A DNA stretch of 64,000 nucleotides from Spirochaetia bacterium (GTDB lineage: Bacteria; Spirochaetota; Spirochaetia; Treponematales; Rectinemataceae): assembly GCA_029975555.1 (NCBI GenBank), contig JARKOY010000079.1, forward strand, positions 1 to 64,000, in the 5' to 3' direction. Position numbers and translations under genes: made by a program. The notes under the pieces are model-generated. The model saw only the letters and a program-made list of their open reading frames with translations, did no database searches and was not told the DNA's origin. How positions within the stretch are numbered: the first letter of the stretch is position 1; each line of letters begins with the position of its first letter. Positions 22,351 through 33,902 of the stretch are shown one piece after another.

Positions 22351-22743
22351 ATGAAATTATTTGCAAAACTGCATGTCCGATGGCTTGACATTGTGATTTT
22401 CGGTCTGGCCGTCGCCTTGGTGTTGGGAACATTTTTTCTGGTTCTAAATCGCCAAAGTGGTACTCGTTATGTCCATATAACGGGAGAAAGCGGAGAATGG
22501 ATCGCCCCCCTCGACAAAGAGGCTGAATACGAGGTGCCGGGGCCGCTCGGCACCACTGTGGTCCACATTCACGACGGAAAGGTGGCGATAGAAGATTCCC
22601 CCTGCAGAAACAAGATATGCATCCTGAGCGGTGCTATTTCCGAACCTGGACAATGGTTGGCGTGCCTTCCAAATCAGGTGTTCGTGCGCATTACAAGCAG
22701 CGAGAGTAACGATGAAGGGAGTGTCGATGCAGGTGTTTTCTAG
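22351..22743 (+). CDS. NusG domain II-containing membrane-anchored protein
   Basis: A 130-residue protein with one N-terminal helix (about residues 12-33, WLDIVIFGLAVALVLGTFFLVL) and an extracytoplasmic NusG-II-like beta domain containing SPCRNKICILSGAISEPGQWLACLPNQVFV. The three-cysteine pattern is typical of the family. This family is regularly found next to Gx (HepS-like) transporter genes and sometimes near RnfC/quinone-linked systems. Here its 3' end overlaps the Gx gene start by 17 nt, so the two products probably work together. Function unproven. Confidence 0.85.
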   Translation: MKLFAKLHVRWLDIVIFGLAVALVLGTFFLVLNRQSGTRYVHITGESGEWIAPLDKEAEYEVPGPLGTTVVHIHDGKVAIEDSPCRNKICILSGAISEPGQWLACLPNQVFVRITSSESNDEGSVDAGVF

Positions 22744-24091
22744 CGCTTCGAGCGAAGATTTTCGATCGCGCTTCGCGAATCGTTCAGATCTGACGGCGCT
22801 GCTGGCGGCGTTTTGCTTCTTTCTTTCCGCCATCGAATACATGCTGCCGAAGCCCCTGCCTTTCATGCGGCTCGGCATCGCGAATCTGCCGATACTGCTG
22901 GCAGTAGATTTTTTGCCTTTTAAGTGGTTTCTTGTGCTGGCCGCCGCAAAAGTGATCGGGATGAGCATCATATCGGGAACACTCTTTTCCTACGTAGCGC
23001 TGTTCAGCCTTGCAGGGACGATGGTCGCGGCGCTCGTGATGCGCGGGATCAGACGACTCGGCAGAGATTCGATCTCGCTGATCGGCGTTTCGATCGCAGG
23101 AGCCGTGATGTCGAACGCCATGCAGATGTTGATCGCACGCTTCGTCATCTTCGGCGAAGTCGCATGGCTGATTGCCCCGCTGTTTTTGCTGACGGGGCTC
23201 ATCACCGGGACAGCGATGGGTTTTTTCGCCGAATATTTTGTCGAGCATTCGAACTGGTATGCGTGCGCGACGGGCGCTTCGGAGGTAATGGATGCCGAAG
23301 GTGAGGGCGGTGTAGACCAAGAACCAGGCCGCACAGACAGAGGCTTGGCCGCTATGCCTACGAAGGCTGGAACAGACACCGCTTCAGAACAGGCAGACGC
23401 GCGTCGCCCAGCGGGACAGCTCGGCGCAAAAAACAAAAGACGAGCTGCGCGGCGCCAGCGCTATGAATCGCTGCTGGAGCCATGGATGGCAGCCGTGCTA
23501 GGCGTCGTGATCGCCGTAGTCTTTCTGCTGCAGCAAGGAATCTTCGTCAAAACACTGTTCCTTCTTCTGTTTATTTTCTGGACCTGGCTTGCGGGTAAAC
23601 GGTTTTCGCTGATTTCGACGCTGCTCGTGACGGTGGGGATCGTCGCGACGAATCTGCTCATTCCCTCGGGGCGTGTGCTGTTCAGGCTCGGACCAATCGT
23701 CATCACCGAAATGGCGCTCAGAGAAGGTCTTTCCAAGGCGCTCACCTTTGAGGGGCTCATGTACCTTTCCAAGGCGGCCATCATGCCGGGGCTTCACTTC
23801 CCTGGAAAGTTCGGCGCCATCATCGCGCAGGCTTTTCAGTATTACGACCGAGTCATCGAGTATCGCGGCAAGGTGCACGCAAAAACGATCGTCCGCGACA
23901 TCGATGTGCTGCTGCAAAAAGTCTGGCTGAGCCCGAAGCTTGTGGGAGAGCCTTCAGAGCAGATAGGCCAGGCCGCCAGCATGGTTTTCCCTTCAATGCA
24001 ATCCCGCACCCGCAGGTCCGTAGTATTTGTTCTCATTGTTGTTATTATAGTTGGTTGTATCCTCGGCGCGGCAAGGGCGACCGGCCTCTGA
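22727..24091 (+). CDS. Gx transporter family protein fused to a second polytopic domain
   Basis: 454 residues. Residues 1-175 or so match Gx/heptaprenyl-diphosphate-synthase-component-I-like membrane proteins (ALLAAFCFFLSAIEYMLPKPLPFMRLGIANLPILLAV), which resemble substrate-binding S-components of ECF importers. A hydrophilic linker of about 75 residues follows. A second domain then has several helices (WMAAVLGVVIAVVFLLQQGIFVKTLFLLLFIFWTWLAGKRFS) and a last helix, reminiscent of an EcfT/CbiQ scaffold. If so, S and T parts are fused and the ATPase lies elsewhere. ATG 22727 is preceded by AAGGGAG. The fusion interpretation is inference. Confidence 0.75.
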   Translation: MQVFSSASSEDFRSRFANRSDLTALLAAFCFFLSAIEYMLPKPLPFMRLGIANLPILLAVDFLPFKWFLVLAAAKVIGMSIISGTLFSYVALFSLAGTMVAALVMRGIRRLGRDSISLIGVSIAGAVMSNAMQMLIARFVIFGEVAWLIAPLFLLTGLITGTAMGFFAEYFVEHSNWYACATGASEVMDAEGEGGVDQEPGRTDRGLAAMPTKAGTDTASEQADARRPAGQLGAKNKRRAARRQRYESLLEPWMAAVLGVVIAVVFLLQQGIFVKTLFLLLFIFWTWLAGKRFSLISTLLVTVGIVATNLLIPSGRVLFRLGPIVITEMALREGLSKALTFEGLMYLSKAAIMPGLHFPGKFGAIIAQAFQYYDRVIEYRGKVHAKTIVRDIDVLLQKVWLSPKLVGEPSEQIGQAASMVFPSMQSRTRRSVVFVLIVVIIVGCILGAARATGL

Positions 24092-24229: not shown

Positions 24230-25471
24230 ATGACACTTCAGTCCGTTCTGGATCTGTTTCAGGGCGTAGGGACACTGTTTGCCGTAGATCCCGGCATGGC
24301 CGTTGCTCGGATCGGTCTCATCTTCTTGGGCATCTTTCTCGTGTATCTTGGCAAAAAGGGCACGCTCGAGCCCCTGCTCATGATTCCCATGGGCCTAGGC
24401 ATGAGTACCGTCAACGCTGCGGTGATGTTCTTCGATCCCCTTGGTCTGCACAATGGGCTGGGGACGCTCTTTGTCGAATCCGCGGCGGGCGCGACGCCGG
24501 ACGCCATACGCAACGCGGCAGACCTCATGAGCATCCTCCAGATCGACTTTCTGCAGCCGATCTACACCTTCATGTTTTCGAACGGTTTGATCGCCTGTCT
24601 GGTGTTCATCGGGATCGGAAGTCTTCTGGACGTGGGCTTTGTGATGATCCATCCTTTCATCAGCATGTTCCTGGCGCTCTGTGCCGAGCTTGGAACGATC
24701 CTCGTCCTTCCGATCGCCCAGCTCTTCGGTTTCACGGCGAAGCAGGCGGCGGCCATCGCAATGGTCGGCGGCGCGGACGGGCCCATGGTGCTCTTCACCA
24801 GCCTTAAGCTCGCCCCGGAGCTCTTCGTGCCGATCGCGGTGGTGGCGTACCTGTACCTCGGCCTCACGTACGGTGGCTATCCCTACCTCATCAAACTGAT
24901 GGTGCCCAAACAAATACGGGGCATCGCAATGCCGCAGCAGAACTATGACATCAACGTCTCGTCGTTCCAGAAACTCATGTTCGCGGTGATCGTCAACACT
25001 ATTCTTTCGCTGCTTTTCCCTGTGGCCGCACCGCTCTTCTTCTCTCTGTTTTTGGGCATTGCGATCCGAGAATCCGGCATCAAGGCGTTTCAGGACTTGG
25101 TGTCGAACACCATTCTGTACACGGCGACGCTGTTTCTGGGGCTGACCCTGGGCATTCTGTGCGAGGCGAGTGTCATCCTCGATCCTAAGGTGTTGCCGCT
25201 TTTGCTCTTGGGCATGCTCGCCCTGCTTCTCTCAGGAATAGGAGGGCTCATCGGAGGTTACATCCTCTATTTCTTCAAGAACGGGGCTTTCAATCCGGTC
25301 ATCGGCATTGCGGGAGTGTCCTGTGTGCCGAGCACGGCAAAGGTCGCCCAAAAAAGTGTCTCCAAGGTCAATCCTCAGGCGATGATCATGCAGTATGCGC
25401 TCGGCGCGAACATTTCAGGGGTAATTACGACTGCGATCATCGCGGCCATCTATGTGACGCTGTTGAAGTGA
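24230..25471 (+). CDS. Sodium-translocating decarboxylase beta subunit (OadB-like)
   Basis: A 413-residue integral membrane subunit that couples decarboxylation of a biotin-bound carboxyl group to Na+ export. It has about ten hydrophobic segments. The diagnostic regions are FIGIGSLLDVGFVMIHPFISMFLALCAELGTILVLPIAQLFGF, IAMVGGADGPMVLFTSLKLAPELF and NPVIGIAGVSCVPSTAKVAQK, which hold the conserved Asp, Ser and Asn of the ion path. First gene of a four-gene operon with gamma, carboxyltransferase/biotin and a small membrane protein. The substrate (oxaloacetate, malonate or methylmalonyl-CoA) cannot be told from this subunit. Confidence 0.93.
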   Translation: MTLQSVLDLFQGVGTLFAVDPGMAVARIGLIFLGIFLVYLGKKGTLEPLLMIPMGLGMSTVNAAVMFFDPLGLHNGLGTLFVESAAGATPDAIRNAADLMSILQIDFLQPIYTFMFSNGLIACLVFIGIGSLLDVGFVMIHPFISMFLALCAELGTILVLPIAQLFGFTAKQAAAIAMVGGADGPMVLFTSLKLAPELFVPIAVVAYLYLGLTYGGYPYLIKLMVPKQIRGIAMPQQNYDINVSSFQKLMFAVIVNTILSLLFPVAAPLFFSLFLGIAIRESGIKAFQDLVSNTILYTATLFLGLTLGILCEASVILDPKVLPLLLLGMLALLLSGIGGLIGGYILYFFKNGAFNPVIGIAGVSCVPSTAKVAQKSVSKVNPQAMIMQYALGANISGVITTAIIAAIYVTLLK

Positions 25472-25484
25472 CAGGAGGCCGGCC

Positions 25485-25784
25485 ATGATGGAGGTTCAGA
25501 TTCTGATCGCGGCGGTGCTTGTCGGGATGCTCTTTGTCCTTGCCCGTATTTCCTGGACGCTGAAAGGAATTCTCGATGTTCTTTCACGAGAGAAGGTTGT
25601 CGCTGCGGCGTCGGATATGCCAGCTAGAAAGTCAACCGCAGAAAAATCGGCCGGGGGCCCAGAAAGTGCCTCGGTCCAGACGCATCCTGCCATCGCCCAT
25701 GACGACCTGCAGGACATCGCCGCAGTCATTGCGGTCGCAGCGCGGGCGACCCTTCGGGGCAGATCAAAATCGGCAGTATCCTGA
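25485..25784 (+). CDS. Decarboxylase gamma subunit (OadG-like)
   Basis: A 99-residue protein with one N-terminal helix (IAAVLVGMLFVLARISWTLKGILDVL) and a hydrophilic tail, as in OadG, which tethers the carboxyltransferase to the membrane beta subunit. The tail ends in ISVAVAAR-like AAVIAVAARATLRGR, the usual gamma C-terminal motif. GGAGG lies 6 nt before ATG 25485; a second ATG follows directly. It sits between beta and the biotin subunit with 13-14-nt gaps. Confidence 0.8.
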   Translation: MMEVQILIAAVLVGMLFVLARISWTLKGILDVLSREKVVAAASDMPARKSTAEKSAGGPESASVQTHPAIAHDDLQDIAAVIAVAARATLRGRSKSAVS

Positions 25785-25798
25785 GAGAGGAACGTCAT

Positions 25799-27931
25799 AT
25801 GAAGAAAATAGATTTCATGCTGACCGCATTCAGAGACGGACTTCAGTCCGCCTACGGCGCGCGGGTCTTCTCGAAAGATTATCTGCCGCTCGTCAAAGCC
25901 TGCGCGGAGGCTGGCATTATCCACTTCGAATCTGGCGGAGGAGCGCTCTTTCAGTCCTCTTTTTTCTACTGCAACGAAAATGCCTTCGATGTCATGGACG
26001 GCTTTAGGCAGGCGGCAGGCCCTGACGCCACGCTGCAGACGCTCGCAAGGGGCATCAATGTCGTAGGTCTTGACAGCCAGAGTTCGGACGTCATCAGGCT
26101 CCACGCGCAGCTCTTCAAGCGCTACGGCGTCACGACCATCAGGAACTTCGACGCCCTGAACGACGTACAGAATCTCATCTTCAGCGGCAAGTGCATCGTG
26201 GAGGCCGGCCTCCGACACGAAATCGCCATCACAATGATGGACTTACCTCCCGGATCGCCCGCGACCCACACGTCCGAGTTTTATCTCGGCGTACTTAGGC
26301 AGGTACTCGACGCCGATATCCCCTATCACTCACTGTGCTTCAAAGATGCGACTGGAACCGTGCGTCCCCGCATGGTCTACGACACGATAAAGGCCGCCCG
26401 CAAACTGCTGGGGCAAGATGCCAGAATCGTGTTCCACACGCACGACACGGCGGGGACCGGAACTCTGTGCTACATGAGTGCCATCGAGGCAGGAGTCGAC
26501 CAGGTAGACCTCTCCATGGCCCCGCTTTCGGGAGGAACCTGTCAGCCGGACATCGTGACGCTCTGGCACGCGCTGCGAGGTTCCGATTATACGCTGGATA
26601 TCGACATCCACAAGATCATCGTGCTCGAAGAGATGCTGAAGGAGGCTCTAGCGGACTACATGCTTCCTCCGGAAGCAACGCGGATCGAACCTCTCATCCC
26701 TTTCTTTCCAATGCCGGGAGGGGCTCTCACCGTCAACACACAGATGCTCCGCGACAACAAGATGTTGGACAAATACCCTGAAGTCATCGCTGCAATGGGA
26801 GAGGTGGTGGCGAAAGGCGGCTTCGGCACGGCAGTGACACCGGTCAGTCAGTTCTATTTTCAGCAGGCATACAACAACGTCGTCTATGGGCCATGGAAAC
26901 GCATCGCCGAAGGATACGGGAAAATGGTGCTCGGATACTTTGGAAAGACACCTCTCCCTCCCGATCCTGAGGTGCAGCGCATCGCGGAGCAACAGCTGGG
27001 ACTTGCGCCCACGACCGAAAGTCCACTCTCCCTGAACGACCGCAATCCGACGAAGGGCCTCGCCGCGGCGGCCGCTATGCTTGAAACGGCTGGCATCGAA
27101 AAGACGGACGAAAACCTGTTTATCGCCGCCACGTGCCTCGACAAGGGTATTCTTTTTCTAAAAGGCAAGGCCGTGCCCCACGTGCGCAAGATATCGGATA
27201 CTGTGCGGCATGAAGAACCCGAGACCTCTTCCAAACCTGTAGATTCGCTCACCGTCACGCTCGGCAACAAGGCCTACGCGGTAAAATTCGATAAAAACAT
27301 GGTGATCGTCAACGGTACCGCCTACGATTTTCAGGTGAAAGAAGGCATCGACGCCGAAGCTGTGGCAAAAACCGCGACCCTGCCCAAGACGGCCGAATTG
27401 CCCGCCGTGAGCGAGACGCATTTTGTTGAGTCCCCTCTTTCGGGGAGAGTGGTGAAGGTTCAGAAAAAAGCTGGCGACAAAGTTGCCGTCGGAGAGACAG
27501 TAGTCATCATCGATTCGATGAACATCGAGGTGCCTCTTAATTCTCCTTATTCCGGCATCATCCAGTCGGTATTCGTCCTGCAGGGCGACATGCTTGAAGC
27601 AGGGACGGCGCTCTATCGCGTCAATACCATCGCGCATGGGACAGTCGATACTGTGGCGCGGGCGGCCGAGGCGCTGACCGCCCAACAAAAACTGCCCGGC
27701 ACCGAAGCGGAGGCGCTTACCCAAATTATCTCGCCGATCGCCGGCCTCGTATTGCGCATCTACAAGGAACCGGGCGAAACTATCATCGCAGGCGAATCTC
27801 TCCTCGTCATGGAATCGATGAAAATGGAAAGACCTGTGAACAGCGTGGTTTCCGGTACAATCGAACGGCTGGCCGTGAAACAGGGCGATCAGATCGAAGC
27901 AGGCCAGGTGCTTGCAATCGTGCGCCAATAA
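25799..27931 (+). CDS. Carboxyltransferase/biotin subunit with two biotinyl domains (OadA-like)
   Basis: 710 residues. The N-terminal HMGL-like TIM barrel is the carboxyltransferase: D13 in FRDGLQS, K182 in SLCFKDATGT (the lysine expected to be carbamylated) and H213/H215 in FHTHDTAGTG (metal ligands). A conserved PYC/OadA linker follows to about 480. Two biotinyl domains then occur in tandem. The second has the canonical MESMKME with biotin-acceptor K675. The first reads IDSMNIE, with N575 where the lysine should be, so it cannot carry biotin. The barrel motif RDGLQSAYGAR also departs from the usual RDxHQSxxATR. The carboxyl donor is unassigned. Confidence 0.88.
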   Translation: MKKIDFMLTAFRDGLQSAYGARVFSKDYLPLVKACAEAGIIHFESGGGALFQSSFFYCNENAFDVMDGFRQAAGPDATLQTLARGINVVGLDSQSSDVIRLHAQLFKRYGVTTIRNFDALNDVQNLIFSGKCIVEAGLRHEIAITMMDLPPGSPATHTSEFYLGVLRQVLDADIPYHSLCFKDATGTVRPRMVYDTIKAARKLLGQDARIVFHTHDTAGTGTLCYMSAIEAGVDQVDLSMAPLSGGTCQPDIVTLWHALRGSDYTLDIDIHKIIVLEEMLKEALADYMLPPEATRIEPLIPFFPMPGGALTVNTQMLRDNKMLDKYPEVIAAMGEVVAKGGFGTAVTPVSQFYFQQAYNNVVYGPWKRIAEGYGKMVLGYFGKTPLPPDPEVQRIAEQQLGLAPTTESPLSLNDRNPTKGLAAAAAMLETAGIEKTDENLFIAATCLDKGILFLKGKAVPHVRKISDTVRHEEPETSSKPVDSLTVTLGNKAYAVKFDKNMVIVNGTAYDFQVKEGIDAEAVAKTATLPKTAELPAVSETHFVESPLSGRVVKVQKKAGDKVAVGETVVIIDSMNIEVPLNSPYSGIIQSVFVLQGDMLEAGTALYRVNTIAHGTVDTVARAAEALTAQQKLPGTEAEALTQIISPIAGLVLRIYKEPGETIIAGESLLVMESMKMERPVNSVVSGTIERLAVKQGDQIEAGQVLAIVRQ

Positions 27932-28101: not shown

Positions 28102-28329
28102 AGTGTCCGCGGCAGGGCTCAGGAACGACCTAGAAGCCTCATCAGCCTGCGCTTCGCTTGAGACCTCGCGGATGCCTCGGTCACAAAGAAAATGGGATTG
28201 TCCAAATTTGCGGACAATCCCAGCCTCCTTGAACGACACGCCGCTCCCGGAGAAGTCGGGACATAGAAATTTAGCGCGTTATTCGAGAGAATATTTTAGT
28301 ACTGAATTTGGCCGTTGGCAAGCATTTTT
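28102..28329. other. Intergenic region between decarboxylase operon and leuS
   Basis: No gene seen in these 228 bp. It contains the hairpin terminator at 28185-28222 and otherwise nothing I recognise. Confidence 0.4.
28185..28222 (-). terminator. Intrinsic terminator of leuS
   Basis: The perfect stem TGGGATTGTCC/GGACAATCCCA (28193-28222) is followed, when read on the minus strand, by TTTTCTTTG. It ends leftward transcription from leuS. The stem may also help end the rightward decarboxylase operon, although no U-run exists in that direction. Confidence 0.72.
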
Positions 28330-30759
28330 TCACCGCACCACAAAGCTGACGAGCTTGTCCTGGACGGCTATCGCCTTGACGATCTCCTTTCCCGAAAGCC
28401 ATTCCGGGATCTTCTCCGCGCGTTTCGCCATCTCGATGAGCTTTTCTTTGGATGTACCTGCGGGCGCGGTGAACTTGCTGCGGACCTTCCCGTTCACCTG
28501 CACGACGATCTCCTTCTCGTCGTCGCAGGTGAGTTCTTCGCGGTAGGCGGGCCAGGGAGCCTTCGAAACCGAGCCTTCATGACCAAGCTTCTCCCAGAGC
28601 TCTTCGCCGAGGTGCGGCGCATAGGGCGCGAGGAGGAGCACAAAGGGTTCCCATGCTGCGCGCGGGATAGTCTCGAGCTTCGACAACTCGTTCGAGTAGA
28701 TCATCATCTGCGAAATGGCCGTATTGAAGTTCAGTGTGGCCGTGTCGTTCGTCACCTTTTTGATGGTCTTGTGGAGGAGCTTCTCAATCTCGGGGGCCAA
28801 GGGTTCCTCGACGAGGGGGCGTTCGGAGATCGCCCATATGCGTTCGAGGAAGCGCGAAACGCCTACCAGGCCGGCCGTCGACCAAGGCTTAGAAACCTCA
28901 AGGGGTCCCATGAACATCTCGTAGACGCGCATGGCGTCGGCGCCATAATTTTCGACGATATCGTCGGGATTGATGACGTTGCCGCGGCTTTTCGACATCT
29001 TTTGATTGTCCTCGCCCAGGATCATGCCCTGGTTCACGAGGCGCATGAATGGCTCGTCGGTGTTCACCAGGCCCAGGTCATAGAGGACCTTGTGCCAGAA
29101 GCGGCTGTACAGGAGGTGCAGAACCGCGTGCTCGGCGCCCCCCACGTACAGATCGACGGGCATCCAGTAGTCGATTTTGGAGCGATCGGCCAACGCGTTG
29201 GGGTTTTTAGGATCGAGGTAGCGCAGGTAGTACCAGCAGGAACCGGCCCACTGGGGCATGGTGTTGGTCTCGCGCTTGGCGGGGCCGCCGCAGCGGGGAC
29301 AGGTGGTGTTGACCCATTCGGAAATGGCTGCGAGCGGGGATTCGCCCGTGCCGGTCGGGGTGTAGGATTTCACCTCGGGCAGGGCGAGAGGGAGGCTTTC
29401 CTCTGGAAGAGGCACGATGCCGCACCTGTCGCAGTGGACGACGGGGATGGGTTCGCCCCAGTAGCGCTGGCGGCTGAAGAGCCAGTCGCGGAGTTTGTAG
29501 TTGACGGTCTTCTTGCCGATGCCGCGCTCCTCGAGCCACTCCGAGATGCGGGCAATGCACTGGGCGGTGGGAAGGCCATCGAATTGGCCCGAATTCACCG
29601 CAATGCCCTCCGCCTCGTTGCAGGCTTCCGGTTCCCTGTCGAAGGGGCCGGTTTCGCCGGGCCTGGCCACCACCTGGATGATAGGCAGCTTGAATTTCTT
29701 GGCAAAATCCCAGTCGCGCGCGTCGTGGGCAGGAACGGCCATGATCGCACCGGTCCCGTAGGAGATGAGGACGTAGTCGCTGATCCATATGGGTATGCGC
29801 GCGCCGTTGACGGGATTGATGGCGTAGGCGCCCGTGAAGACGCCGGTCTTATCCTTTGCAAGATCGGTGCGCTCCAGGTCGCTCTTGGCTGCAGCCTCTT
29901 CGATGTAGGCCTCGACGGCTGCGCGATGCTCCGGGGTGGTTATGTGAGGCACAAAGGGATGCTCCGGCGCCAGGACCATGTAGGTCGCGCCGAAGAGCGT
30001 GTCGGGGCGCGTCGTGTAAATCTCCAGCGCCTCGTCGTATCCTTCGATTTTAAAAAACACCGATGCGCCTTCGGATCTGCCGATCCAGTTTCGCTGCATG
30101 AGCTTTATGGGTTCGGGCCAGTCGAGTTTGTCGAGATCGGCCAAGAGGCGCTCGGCGTACGCGGTGATCTTGAGCACCCACTGACGGATGCGCTTGCGGA
30201 CGACTTTTGTCCCACAGCGATCGCAATGTCCCTCCTTGACCTCCTCGTTGGCGAGTCCGGTCTTACAGGACGGGCACCAGTTGATGGGCATCTCGGCCTC
30301 GTAGGCGAGGCCCTTCTTGAAGAGCTGGAGGAATATCCACTGCGTCCACTTGTAGTATTCAGGATCGCAGGTGATCACTTCGCGAGACCAATCGTACGAG
30401 AAGCCGAGCGATTTGATCTGCGTACGAAATCGATCGATGTTCGCGTAGGTCGTCACTGCGGGGTGCGTGCCGGTCTGAATTGCATAGTTTTCAGCCGGAA
30501 GCCCGAAGGCGTCGAAACCCATGGGATGCAGGACATTGTAGCCGTTCATCCGCAGATAGCGGCAATAGATATCCGTGGCGGTGTAGCCTTCGGGGTGTCC
30601 GACGTGCAGCCCTGCGCCCGAAGGATAGGGAAACATGTCGAGCACATAGCGACGTTTTTCCTTTGGAAAATGCTCATCTTCGACCGCGCGGAAAGTCTGC
30701 TCGTCCTCCCAGCGCTTCTGCCACTTCTTCTCGATGTCCTTGAACGGATACTTCGCCAT
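28330..30759 (-). CDS. leuS: Leucyl-tRNA synthetase
   Basis: An 809-residue class I aminoacyl-tRNA synthetase charging tRNA-Leu. The HIGH-type motif is in [17 protein letters not shown] near residue 45, and [14 protein letters not shown] lies near 570. The CP1 editing domain sits between ([20 protein letters not shown]), with zinc-ribbon cysteines [22 protein letters not shown] and CDRCG/CPRCGG. The C-terminal end carries the usual anticodon-binding helices and small ubiquitin-like region. GGGAG precedes ATG 30759. It lies 47 nt after the pgs operon, and read-through transcription is possible. Confidence 0.97.
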
Positions 30760-30806
30760 GATCTATCTCCCGATGCAATGGTCAAATCTATGTATTGCTA
30801 TGGATA

Positions 30807-32027
30807 CTATCCAAGAGGCTTTCGGATGGCAAGGGCTGCACCTGCGAGCAACAAGCCCAGCACCAGCGGCCACGCGGGCTTTTTTGGGGTGTGCGTGACC
30901 TCGAAGGGGATCGGCGCCTTTGGATTGCCGTCCACGGCGATCCCACTCTGGATCGCGAGGCCCTTTATGTTGAGGAAGTGCAGGACAGGAATACCACGCG
31001 CAAGGTAGTAGCCGAGGAGTCCATCACCTGCGTCGACAGATGCCCTTTCCGGGGTGGCTATCGGAGCTGCGCTGAGCTGTTTGGTCGACTGCGCGCGGCT
31101 GTTCCATGCCGGAGAGAGAATGAGGCCGGGCTTGCGCGTGAGCGAAACCTGCCCGGTGCCGATATTGACATCCGCCCCGCCGATGTTCACGAAGGCCCTG
31201 ACAGGGCCTGCTTTTTCGTATACTTCGAGGTGGGACAAAAAAGAGGCTTCGAAGCTTTCGCCGCCGATGAAGGGTACATGCAAACTACTGGCAGTACGGC
31301 GCGCGTAGCGGGCGAGATCGTCGCTCGGCTCGAGCCGGTAGAGGGAAGAAATGCCTCGGTCGCCGTCACCTCCAGGAGAAATCGCCGCAGGCATGTAGGG
31401 CAGCACAGCGGCATCTCTGCAGATAGCCATCATTTCGGCATTGCTCAAGCCCTCGATGTTCGCGCCGTACTCAGAAGCACCGAGGGACGTGATGACGACA
31501 GGCTCGACGCCCGTCTCCGCACAGGCCGAAAGCACGGCGAGCAGAATGCCGGGGAAAGACCCCGAAGAGCCGACGGCGATTCTGTCGCCCGGCCTCAGTC
31601 CAAGCTCGTGGAAATAGCGCACGAAAAGGGCGGCAAAGGAGGTGCTCGTCGCTGTCCGCTTGGCGACGATATCGCCGATCGTGGTGGTCAGCATGCTCGA
31701 TTCGGCGCCGATGAGACCAGTCCGATAGGGATCCAACGCCGGGTCAATCGGGATACCGAGCAGTCGGCGCTTGTCTGCGACAGCTTCCTCCGCGCGGGCC
31801 ATTCGCAGGGCAGCGCGGCGCATTGCATCTACGGAAGGATGTGGGACTTCGCGCGTAAAAAGCGAGGAAGCCGCAATGCCAAGGGCGAGCGCCCCAAGCG
31901 CCACAAGAACGCGCAGAAACGTGAATTGCTCTCGAAGATGTCGGCGGCGACCGCTGCACCACGTGCGGCGAGCGTGTGTCTGACGATCATCTCCAGAAAC
32001 CCGAAACGATGTCGCAGATTGGTTCAT
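30807..32027 (-). CDS. pgsW: Poly-gamma-glutamate system protein PgsW
   Basis: A 406-residue protein of the poly-gamma-glutamate system family. An N-terminal membrane helix lies around 36-58 (LRVLVALGALALGIAASSLF). A large soluble domain contains GDRIAVGSSGSFPGILLAVLSACAETGVEPVVITSLGASEYGANIEG, and a final C-terminal helix (WPLVLGLLLAGAALAI) ends the protein. This family is known mainly from pgs clusters of spirochaetes and a few other bacteria; its role (assembly or chain handling) is not established. Third gene of pgsB-pgsC-pgsW, starting 10 nt after pgsC. Confidence 0.82.
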   Translation of the reverse strand: MNQSATSFRVSGDDRQTHARRTWCSGRRRHLREQFTFLRVLVALGALALGIAASSLFTREVPHPSVDAMRRAALRMARAEEAVADKRRLLGIPIDPALDPYRTGLIGAESSMLTTTIGDIVAKRTATSTSFAALFVRYFHELGLRPGDRIAVGSSGSFPGILLAVLSACAETGVEPVVITSLGASEYGANIEGLSNAEMMAICRDAAVLPYMPAAISPGGDGDRGISSLYRLEPSDDLARYARRTASSLHVPFIGGESFEASFLSHLEVYEKAGPVRAFVNIGGADVNIGTGQVSLTRKPGLILSPAWNSRAQSTKQLSAAPIATPERASVDAGDGLLGYYLARGIPVLHFLNIKGLAIQSGIAVDGNPKAPIPFEVTHTPKKPAWPLVLGLLLAGAALAIRKPLG

Positions 32028-32037
32028 CAGCCCAGCC

Positions 32038-32469
32038 TCAGCGTGCCACGAGCATGAGCACAGTGCGCGTCGCCAGGGTAATTACGGCACTCGCGAGGAG
32101 TGTTCTCCACGGCCCCTGTTTCCACGAATCGTTCGCGATGAGCCCCGGCACGACGTAGCCGATCGCGCGCATCTCAGGTGTGCCGACAAAGAGCCATCCG
32201 GTGAACGCGTCCAGAAGCGCGCCGGCCAAGATTCCTGTAAGTATGAAGGCCATGAATCGCCGCCGACCGAAGAGAATCGTGACGCGCGACAGGAGCTTCA
32301 CCACTAGAAGCGCGAGCATCGCGGCGGTCCAGGTCATGAGAATGCGCAGCGGCTGATCGACATAGAGCGCGAGGTAGCCAGGCGCCACAAGACCTCCGGA
32401 GAGCCACCCCGTCGCCTCGCCGAAGAGAAAGCCGAACACAATCGAAACGACGATCGAGACAGCAGCCAC
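32038..32469 (-). CDS. pgsC: Poly-gamma-glutamate biosynthesis protein PgsC/CapC
   Basis: A 143-residue integral membrane protein with about five helices. VVSIVFGFLFGEATGWLSGGLVAPGYLALYVDQPLRI is diagnostic of CapC, and GYVVPGLIANDSWKQGPWRTLLASAVITLATR closes it. The track starts at 32571 inside pgsB. GTG 32469, preceded by GGGGGGAGGA, gives the family N-terminus and shares one base with the pgsB stop (ATAGTG), a classic coupled junction. PgsC partners PgsB in the membrane ligase that polymerises glutamate. Confidence 0.9.
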   Translation of the reverse strand: MAAVSIVVSIVFGFLFGEATGWLSGGLVAPGYLALYVDQPLRILMTWTAAMLALLVVKLLSRVTILFGRRRFMAFILTGILAGALLDAFTGWLFVGTPEMRAIGYVVPGLIANDSWKQGPWRTLLASAVITLATRTVLMLVAR

Positions 32470-33902
32470 TATGTCCTCCCCCCGCTCGAGGCGCGCAACG
32501 CATCGAGCGATGCGGTCAGTGCCATTCCCGGCCCCCTTATATTGCCCGCGCAGAGTAAATCGATGCCACAAGGCCTGCGCGGAAGCATCTCGAGCGCAGT
32601 CTCGAGCACAGACTCCACGCGCGATTCCGAAGGCCGCAGCACGCGCACTGGCGCACTTCGAAGCCGGGGTGCAGGCCTCGGCTCGCCCGAAAGCGCTGCC
32701 TCACTCAGGGTATCCTTCACAAGTCGCCGCGCGAGCCATCTGCTCATCCCGAACACGATAACCGCGTCGGCGTCGATTCCCTCCGCGATCTCGGCGAGCT
32801 GCAATGCGCGCCACGAACGATCGTCGCGGTGGTTGAACACAAGAATGCGGGTGCGCCGATCTTCCGCGCGGGCATTCGAATCGGCTGGTGCAGCGCGCTG
32901 GTCTACGACAGCTCTCCGGCTCGCGGTCGCCTCTGGGCCCGCGGCCGCTTCCTGGCCATGGACAGCCTCTTGAAAGGACTCCTTTAGCCTATCCAAGCTC
33001 GCCACCTCTCTACGCCACAGTGTGAGTGTCGACTGAGCGTCGTTTGCAGCAAACGCGTTCACCGCGCGCACCTTCACGCCCTGCCATTCAAACTCGACAG
33101 ATGCGCACACGCCGGGATCAGGTTGAATCTTGAGCATGCCACGCAGCGCCACCTCGCGCTGCACACCGCATTCCTCGCACACTGCAAGCGCGAGCGCGAG
33201 GTTCTCAGCAAACATCGGGTACCCGAAGCGCGCACACCACGAACGCACAACCTCATCCGCGCTCACAAACTTCGATGCGCTCGTAGGCGCAGAACCCCTC
33301 CTGCCGAGCAACGCACCGTTTGTTGAGCTGCGGCCTTGCCCCGCGCGCTCGAAAATTGCCTTCAATTCTTCATCTAAGCCTTCGGTACCAACAAAGACCT
33401 GCCCCCGCTCCGGCACCGACAGCGCGAGGATCTCCGCGATCTGGCTGAGTTCCACACCCATCGTATCCCTGTGGTCTGCCCTCACATTCGTGATGACCCC
33501 AATAGTCGAGCGCGCGAGCCGATGCTCGAGCGTCCAGATGGTTTCGGGCTGAATCGCCATGCACTCGGCCACGATCGCCTGCGCACCCAGACCGACAGAC
33601 CGCTGCACGAACCACCTGTGCTCCATGATCGTTGCGCCATGACGCCTTCGGATCGGCTCTTCCGAAAGATCAGGGAGAATAAGACGCGCGGCCGATCCAG
33701 TGGTCTTCGCGCACACGCGCAGCCCACTCTCCGCCAAACCTGCAGCAATGAGCCGTGTTACAGTCGACTTTCCGCGCGTCCCATTCACGAGTATGCGAAT
33801 GGGAATCTTTTCGAGTCGAGACATGTGGATTCGATATTCCGCGATGCCAGCGACCACAAGCAGCGCGCTCACCGCGACGACAAAAAGAATCACCTGCTTC
33901 AA
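32469..33902 (-). CDS. pgsB: Poly-gamma-glutamate synthase PgsB/CapB
   Basis: A 477-residue ATP-dependent amide ligase related to Mur ligases, polymerising glutamate through the gamma-carboxyl. An N-terminal membrane helix (residues 3-21) is followed by the P-loop RILVNGTRGKSTVTRLIAAGL. The central domain has EHRWFVQRSVGLGAQAIVAECMAIQPE and ITNVRADHRDTMG, both CapB signatures. An Ala/Glu/Arg-rich insert (about 315-350, QEAAAGPEATASRR) is unusual. The start is TTG 33902, close behind a small GGAGCA site; GTG three codons later is an alternative. No pgsA/capA is present nearby. Confidence 0.9.
   Translation of the reverse strand: MKQVILFVVAVSALLVVAGIAEYRIHMSRLEKIPIRILVNGTRGKSTVTRLIAAGLAESGLRVCAKTTGSAARLILPDLSEEPIRRRHGATIMEHRWFVQRSVGLGAQAIVAECMAIQPETIWTLEHRLARSTIGVITNVRADHRDTMGVELSQIAEILALSVPERGQVFVGTEGLDEELKAIFERAGQGRSSTNGALLGRRGSAPTSASKFVSADEVVRSWCARFGYPMFAENLALALAVCEECGVQREVALRGMLKIQPDPGVCASVEFEWQGVKVRAVNAFAANDAQSTLTLWRREVASLDRLKESFQEAVHGQEAAAGPEATASRRAVVDQRAAPADSNARAEDRRTRILVFNHRDDRSWRALQLAEIAEGIDADAVIVFGMSRWLARRLVKDTLSEAALSGEPRPAPRLRSAPVRVLRPSESRVESVLETALEMLPRRPCGIDLLCAGNIRGPGMALTASLDALRASSGGRT

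Follow-up and report, generated by a model that had tools for sequence, protein, structure and literature searches.

The alpha subunit encoded at positions 25799..27931 of the forward strand, within the 64 000 nt window (the whole stretch of DNA analysed), is a carboxyltransferase of 710 aa that bears two biotinyl domains in tandem, the first of which has lost its acceptor lysine. As tandem and triple carriers are themselves common in spirochaete decarboxylases, the new element here is the silencing of domain 1 across an entire clade. It is apparently domain 2, the added copy, that now bears the functional biotin, and we consider it slightly the better bet that domain 1 serves the carrier arm as a spacer or as a docking module, with no catalytic part of its own. 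A literature search on tandem or multiple biotinyl domains found no description under the terms used.

The extent of the alpha subunit follows from its open reading frame (ATG at 25799, stop at 27929-27931), profile matches and an AlphaFold model built on 38 sequences, with a mean pLDDT of 84.8. Residues 1-290 (25799..26668, +) form a TIM-barrel carboxyltransferase of the HMGL-type, as delimited by alignment to transcarboxylase 5S and OadA, and residues 303-491 (26705..27271, +) correspond to the PYC_OADA conserved carboxylase domain (PF02436, 86.3 bits). Structural comparison of the model using Foldseek returned transcarboxylase 5S (1rqb, TMt 0.86) and the Vibrio OAD carboxyltransferase (2nx9, TMt 0.84), with pyruvate carboxylase chains also among the matches. 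Ahead of the carriers lies a small beta region at aa 483-535 (27245..27403, +), modelled by AlphaFold at low to middling confidence as strands over 483-510 and a helix at 519-525; by analogy with OAD (PMC7274780), this probably serves as the association domain, through which gamma is bound.

Biotinyl domain 1 (aa 541-609; 27419..27625, +) and biotinyl domain 2 (aa 641-709; 27719..27925, +), both delimited by Pfam and AlphaFold, are separated by a linker of aa 610-640 (27626..27718, +). The Pfam Biotin_lipoyl model matches two stretches of the protein (96.6 bits in total), with per-domain scores in the whole-genome scan of 50.1 bits for domain 1 and 60.8 bits for domain 2, and the two share 41% identity over 61 aa (E 9e-18). 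In the AlphaFold model both adopt the same six-strand barrel, mostly at a pLDDT of 82-92, and the two acceptor positions occupy equivalent hairpin tips: the turn that bears residue 575 joins strands 567-573 and 576-581, and the one that bears residue 675 joins strands 667-673 and 676-681. Codon 575 (27521..27523, +) reads AAC, placing asparagine in the context DSMNIE, whilst codon 675 (27821..27823, +) reads AAA, placing the biotin acceptor lysine in ESMKME. The preliminary description, which had proposed tandem folds with MNI at Asn575 and MKM at K675, is thus borne out in these respects by Pfam, by the mutual identity of the domains, by AlphaFold and by the codons themselves. Its emphasis on a spacing of exactly 100 residues is not, as the acceptor sites of relatives lie anywhere from about 93 to 125 residues apart (L004 has 100, L005 has 95); the figure is a coincidence, and was rejected as a design feature. 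The oadA model TIGR01108 aligns best to aa 10-604 of the alpha subunit, and therefore domain 1 occupies the canonical carrier position of OadA, with domain 2 being the extra, C-terminal copy.

With regard to the spread of this feature, a species-level genome scan recovered 80 relatives. The family to which the window belongs is represented by 30 genomes, nine of which contain the alpha gene; the domain-1 acceptor site can be read in eight of these, the ninth (L089, on the same contig as L013) ending at a contig edge. Lysine is missing from domain 1 in all eight, being replaced by asparagine in the window and L086, by glycine in five (L092, L007, L088, L090 and L093) and by serine in one (L005), whilst every one of the eight keeps the acceptor lysine of domain 2. 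The conclusion that domain 1 cannot carry biotin at the usual position is supported. Beyond this family, the acceptor lysine is present in homologues wherever the site is readable, and ESMKME stands in both domains of L004, the closest outgroup (71% identical). The preliminary description had named an orthologue with lysine at 575 as a case against it; L004 is literally such an orthologue, but the tree reads the lysine as ancestral and later lost. Many Spirochaetota, and Desulfoluna as well, have biotinyl domains in tandem, whilst homologues from Verrucomicrobiota, Lentisphaerota and Kiritimatiellota have a single one. Five proteins (L020, L133, L137, L139 and L148) possess three tandem biotinyl domains, all with the acceptor lysine, and tandem MKM domains are likewise seen in the ordinary OadA of families from the same order (L094-L100, L103 and L108).

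The lysine-less proteins form one clade, both in a barrel-based tree of 97 rows (SH-aLRT 86) and in a more careful barrel-based tree (88/84), where a single change suffices in 85% of bootstrap trees; this argues for one loss after the tandem duplication, although the clade support of 88/84 behind a single loss is moderate. L004 attaches just outside this clade (100/99), and in a tree of the individual domains its domain 1 groups with the lysine-less first domains (97), which places the duplication before the loss; its domain 2 groups, more weakly, with domain 2 of the window (82). A single loss of lysine following tandem duplication is therefore the history that fits the sequences best. In the same domain tree, L006, L015 and L048/L049 are among the cases where domains cluster by protein or among close relatives, which suggests that tandem carriers originated more than once in spirochaetes, although the tree, with only 69 columns, is indicative on this point and not firm.

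Despite losing its acceptor, domain 1 has not been free to decay. Comparison of the window with L086 (90% identical) yields a dN/dS of 0.038 for domain 1 (bootstrap 0.010-0.098); the values for domain 2 and the barrel are 0.094 and 0.034, with dS near or above 1 making these ratios approximate. A KK.GDK.A.GET stretch and Met574 are invariant across the lysine-less clade, and no deletion of domain 1 was found among readable family members. The low dN/dS and invariant motif show that domain 1 is kept by selection, but this signal alone cannot distinguish a function from the need of a domain held in cis to stay folded. The main rival to a spacer or docking role accordingly sees domain 1 as a passive remnant of the duplication without a function of its own, folded solely because misfolding within a needed protein would be harmful. 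Such a leftover would explain why the acceptor tip has drifted (N, G or S, followed by I, M or V, and then E, Q, S or K) whilst the core was retained, and domain 1 is a little less conserved within the clade than domain 2 (mean pairwise identities of 54% and 58%); moreover, the number of carriers is flexible, varying from one to three among relatives. A dN/dS as low as that of the catalytic barrel, the invariant residues and the failure of any readable family member to discard the domain weigh against this, and we regard it as somewhat unlikely, albeit a serious contender.

A decoy or brake, in which domain 1 occupies the carboxyltransferase or beta site and so tunes turnover, would be in keeping with the retained carrier fold in the AlphaFold model and with the methionine that precedes the acceptor position in all clade members, and finds a parallel in plant BADC, which was initially put forward as an inhibitor (PMC11926652). 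This is decidedly improbable, however, as the drift of the tip residues makes active-site docking less likely, no regulatory signal or partner was found, and the inhibitor model for BADC is itself disputed in favour of a later assembly role (PMC11926652). Biotin saving by scavenging bacteria, with no mechanical role for domain 1, is more doubtful still: no bioB scored above cut-off in any of the 30 family genomes, and the genome of the window has the uptake gene BioY, but bioB is similarly missing above cut-off from L004 and several Sphaerochaeta-type genomes in which both lysines persist. As the absence is common to both kinds of lineage, biotin economy does not explain the loss, and this candidate was set aside since the trait does not track biotin synthesis (bioB, BioY). 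An error of sequencing or assembly at codon 575 would require one base only to turn lysine into asparagine, and the genome is a multi-contig draft; yet seven other family genomes have no lysine at the site, and three different residues occur over the set, which rules this out for practical purposes. The preliminary description had offered a spacer, docking site or decoy altering the reach of the biotin arm. That domain 1 is lysine-less, clade-wide and under purifying selection fits a retained spacer or docking role, whilst the particular role, decoy and reach included, is one that we infer, and no interaction surface on domain 1 could be demonstrated.

The barrel was also said to deviate from OadA in its motif RDGLQSAYGAR. 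This is the local form of a subfamily-wide motif, RDGFQS.(Y/F)G(A/S)R, with RDG(F/L)QS..G.R being common to homologues from Spirochaetota and PVC bacteria, so the deviation is a property of a large subfamily (of 393 genomes sampled in the phylum, 99 have it, and it also occurs in PVC bacteria) and is not peculiar to this protein. The metal ligands, assigned as D, putative carbamyl-K, H and H by alignment to transcarboxylase 5S, are conserved throughout (D13 in 82/82 readable homologues; K182, H213 and H215 in 83/83) and identical in 14 OadA proteins. R84, T347, S350 and Q351 are invariant in both the subfamily and OadA, and the arginine and threonine facing the substrate are retained across the subfamily. 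Three sites do differ (W46G, D52Q and Y91L), with G, Q and L in 83/83 subfamily members and W, D and Y in 14/14 OadA, such that the alpha barrel reads GGGAxFQ and RGxNVVGL where OadA has the active-site motifs WGGATFD and RGQNLLGY. The OadA residues D and Y at 52 and 91 we take to correspond to the biotin-pocket residues D590/Y628 of pyruvate carboxylase. A biotinyl domain with an MKM lysine is present, in the form of domain 2 and K675. The protein scores 330 bits against TIGR01108, the OadA equivalog, far below the cut-off of 756.5 bits. The earlier suggestion of a new substrate is therefore weakly supported: the three substitutions point towards it, whilst the subfamily-wide motif and the invariant metal ligands, arginine and threonine do not. 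From these residues, a substrate other than oxaloacetate is possible.

Upstream of the alpha gene lie two putative partners. The first (24230..25471, +) encodes a beta subunit, an OAD_beta / MadB-like membrane carboxybiotin decarboxylase (PF03977, 357.8 bits), for which the best NCBIfam model is the malonate-type MadB, TIGR03136, at 469 bits and below the cut-off of 596.9 bits. When aligned to Salmonella OAD beta (6iva), for which the essential residues are described (PMC7274780), E40, D203, N311, S382 and N412 correspond to E47, D183, N292, S364 and N394, such that five of six essential Na+/carboxybiotin residues are matched, with R304 lacking a clear counterpart. The second (25485..25784, +), between beta and alpha, encodes a gamma-like small subunit of 99 aa with an N-terminal hydrophobic helix and an Ala-rich C-terminal tail (IAAVIAVAA); it has no match in Pfam or NCBIfam, and similar small proteins occupy the gamma position in relatives. 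Gene neighbourhoods provided no clue to the substrate, the only informative recurrent neighbour being a biotin ligase gene, near the operon in 13 relatives and often adjoining it; other neighbours, judged by eye to be dCMP-deaminase-like, NUDIX-like or Mrp-like, were uninformative in this regard.

The genome of the window also encodes a separate MmdC-type biotin carrier with AMKM and two further OAD_beta genes (G000:C50 and G000:C112), so that several decarboxylase pumps may coexist. At L013 (G015 contig C267), mmdA-like, delta-like and separate biotin carrier genes lie directly upstream of beta-gamma-alpha, an order by which two carboxyltransferases may share one membrane unit. Elsewhere in the window, a long ORF at 22631-24091 apparently joins an ECF-type substrate-binding membrane part to a T-component-like half, and three genes at 30807-33902 (-) resemble a poly-gamma-glutamate synthesis set (PgsB/PgsC/PgsW-like), both as judged by eye. 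An open frame of 897 aa at 28315-31008 (+), antisense to a leuS-like gene (28330-30759, -), is probably spurious and caused by codon bias.

Taken with its neighbours, the alpha gene recalls the three-gene set OadA/OadB/OadG of the OAD Na+ pump from Salmonella, Vibrio and Klebsiella, with which it shares a TIM barrel with D, K, H and H, a PYC_OADA domain, a C-terminal biotinyl domain and a beta subunit containing most of the Na+/decarboxylation residues. It departs from OAD in that beta is nearer to the MadB model, and from OadA in having two biotinyl domains, of which that at the canonical position is lysine-less. Sphaerochaeta-type spirochaetes, Desulfoluna and Treponema-type OadA similarly have tandem, and sometimes triple, carriers on alpha, but all of these keep their lysines, and only the family of the window has lost that of domain 1. 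Two carriers per complex are also known from the glutaconyl-CoA decarboxylase of Clostridium symbiosum, where GcdC1 and GcdC2 both bind biotin (PMC7145394); these, however, are separate subunits serving a carboxyltransferase of another fold family, whereas here two domains reside within alpha. The best precedent for a lysine-less carrier that is kept is plant BADC, which is homologous to BCCP, lacks the biotin motif and contributes to the assembly of acetyl-CoA carboxylase (PMC11926652). Both combine a biotinyl-type fold with a lost acceptor motif, and both are retained beside a biotinylated carrier, in this instance with conservation across a clade; BADC, though, is a separate protein acting in trans with BC and BCCP, whilst domain 1 lies in cis within a decarboxylase alpha subunit, and the likeness is drawn as an analogy with no claim of direct descent.

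In the mechanism that we favour, the beta, gamma and alpha operon would constitute a biotin-dependent Na+-pump decarboxylase, both the activity and the Na+ coupling being predicted. The biotin ligase gene near the operon in relatives, together with BirA and BioY in the genome of the window, speaks for this reading. The alpha barrel would transfer a carboxyl group from a substrate of the 2-oxo-acid type to the biotin on K675, whereupon domain 2 would swing to beta for the carboxybiotin to be decarboxylated and Na+ exported. Domain 1, as a product of tandem duplication whose lysine was presumably lost in a single event in the stem of this spirochaete family, would now sit at the root of the arm as a folded module without catalytic duty, positioning the distal carrier. 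A fuller proposal, unlikely as a whole, would have domain 1 act as an in-cis, BADC-like dock on the alpha association domain, gamma or beta, so that the distal biotin domain stays close to both active sites, in combination with an altered barrel that uses a substrate other than oxaloacetate. For the question of how far the biotin arm of a decarboxylase pump reaches, and by which route it passes between distant active sites, a silenced canonical carrier alongside relatives with one, two or three live domains offers a natural experiment in which the length of the arm and the number of carriers vary. Likewise, the active-site signature of this subfamily, unlike that of OadA, makes its substrate a testable question.
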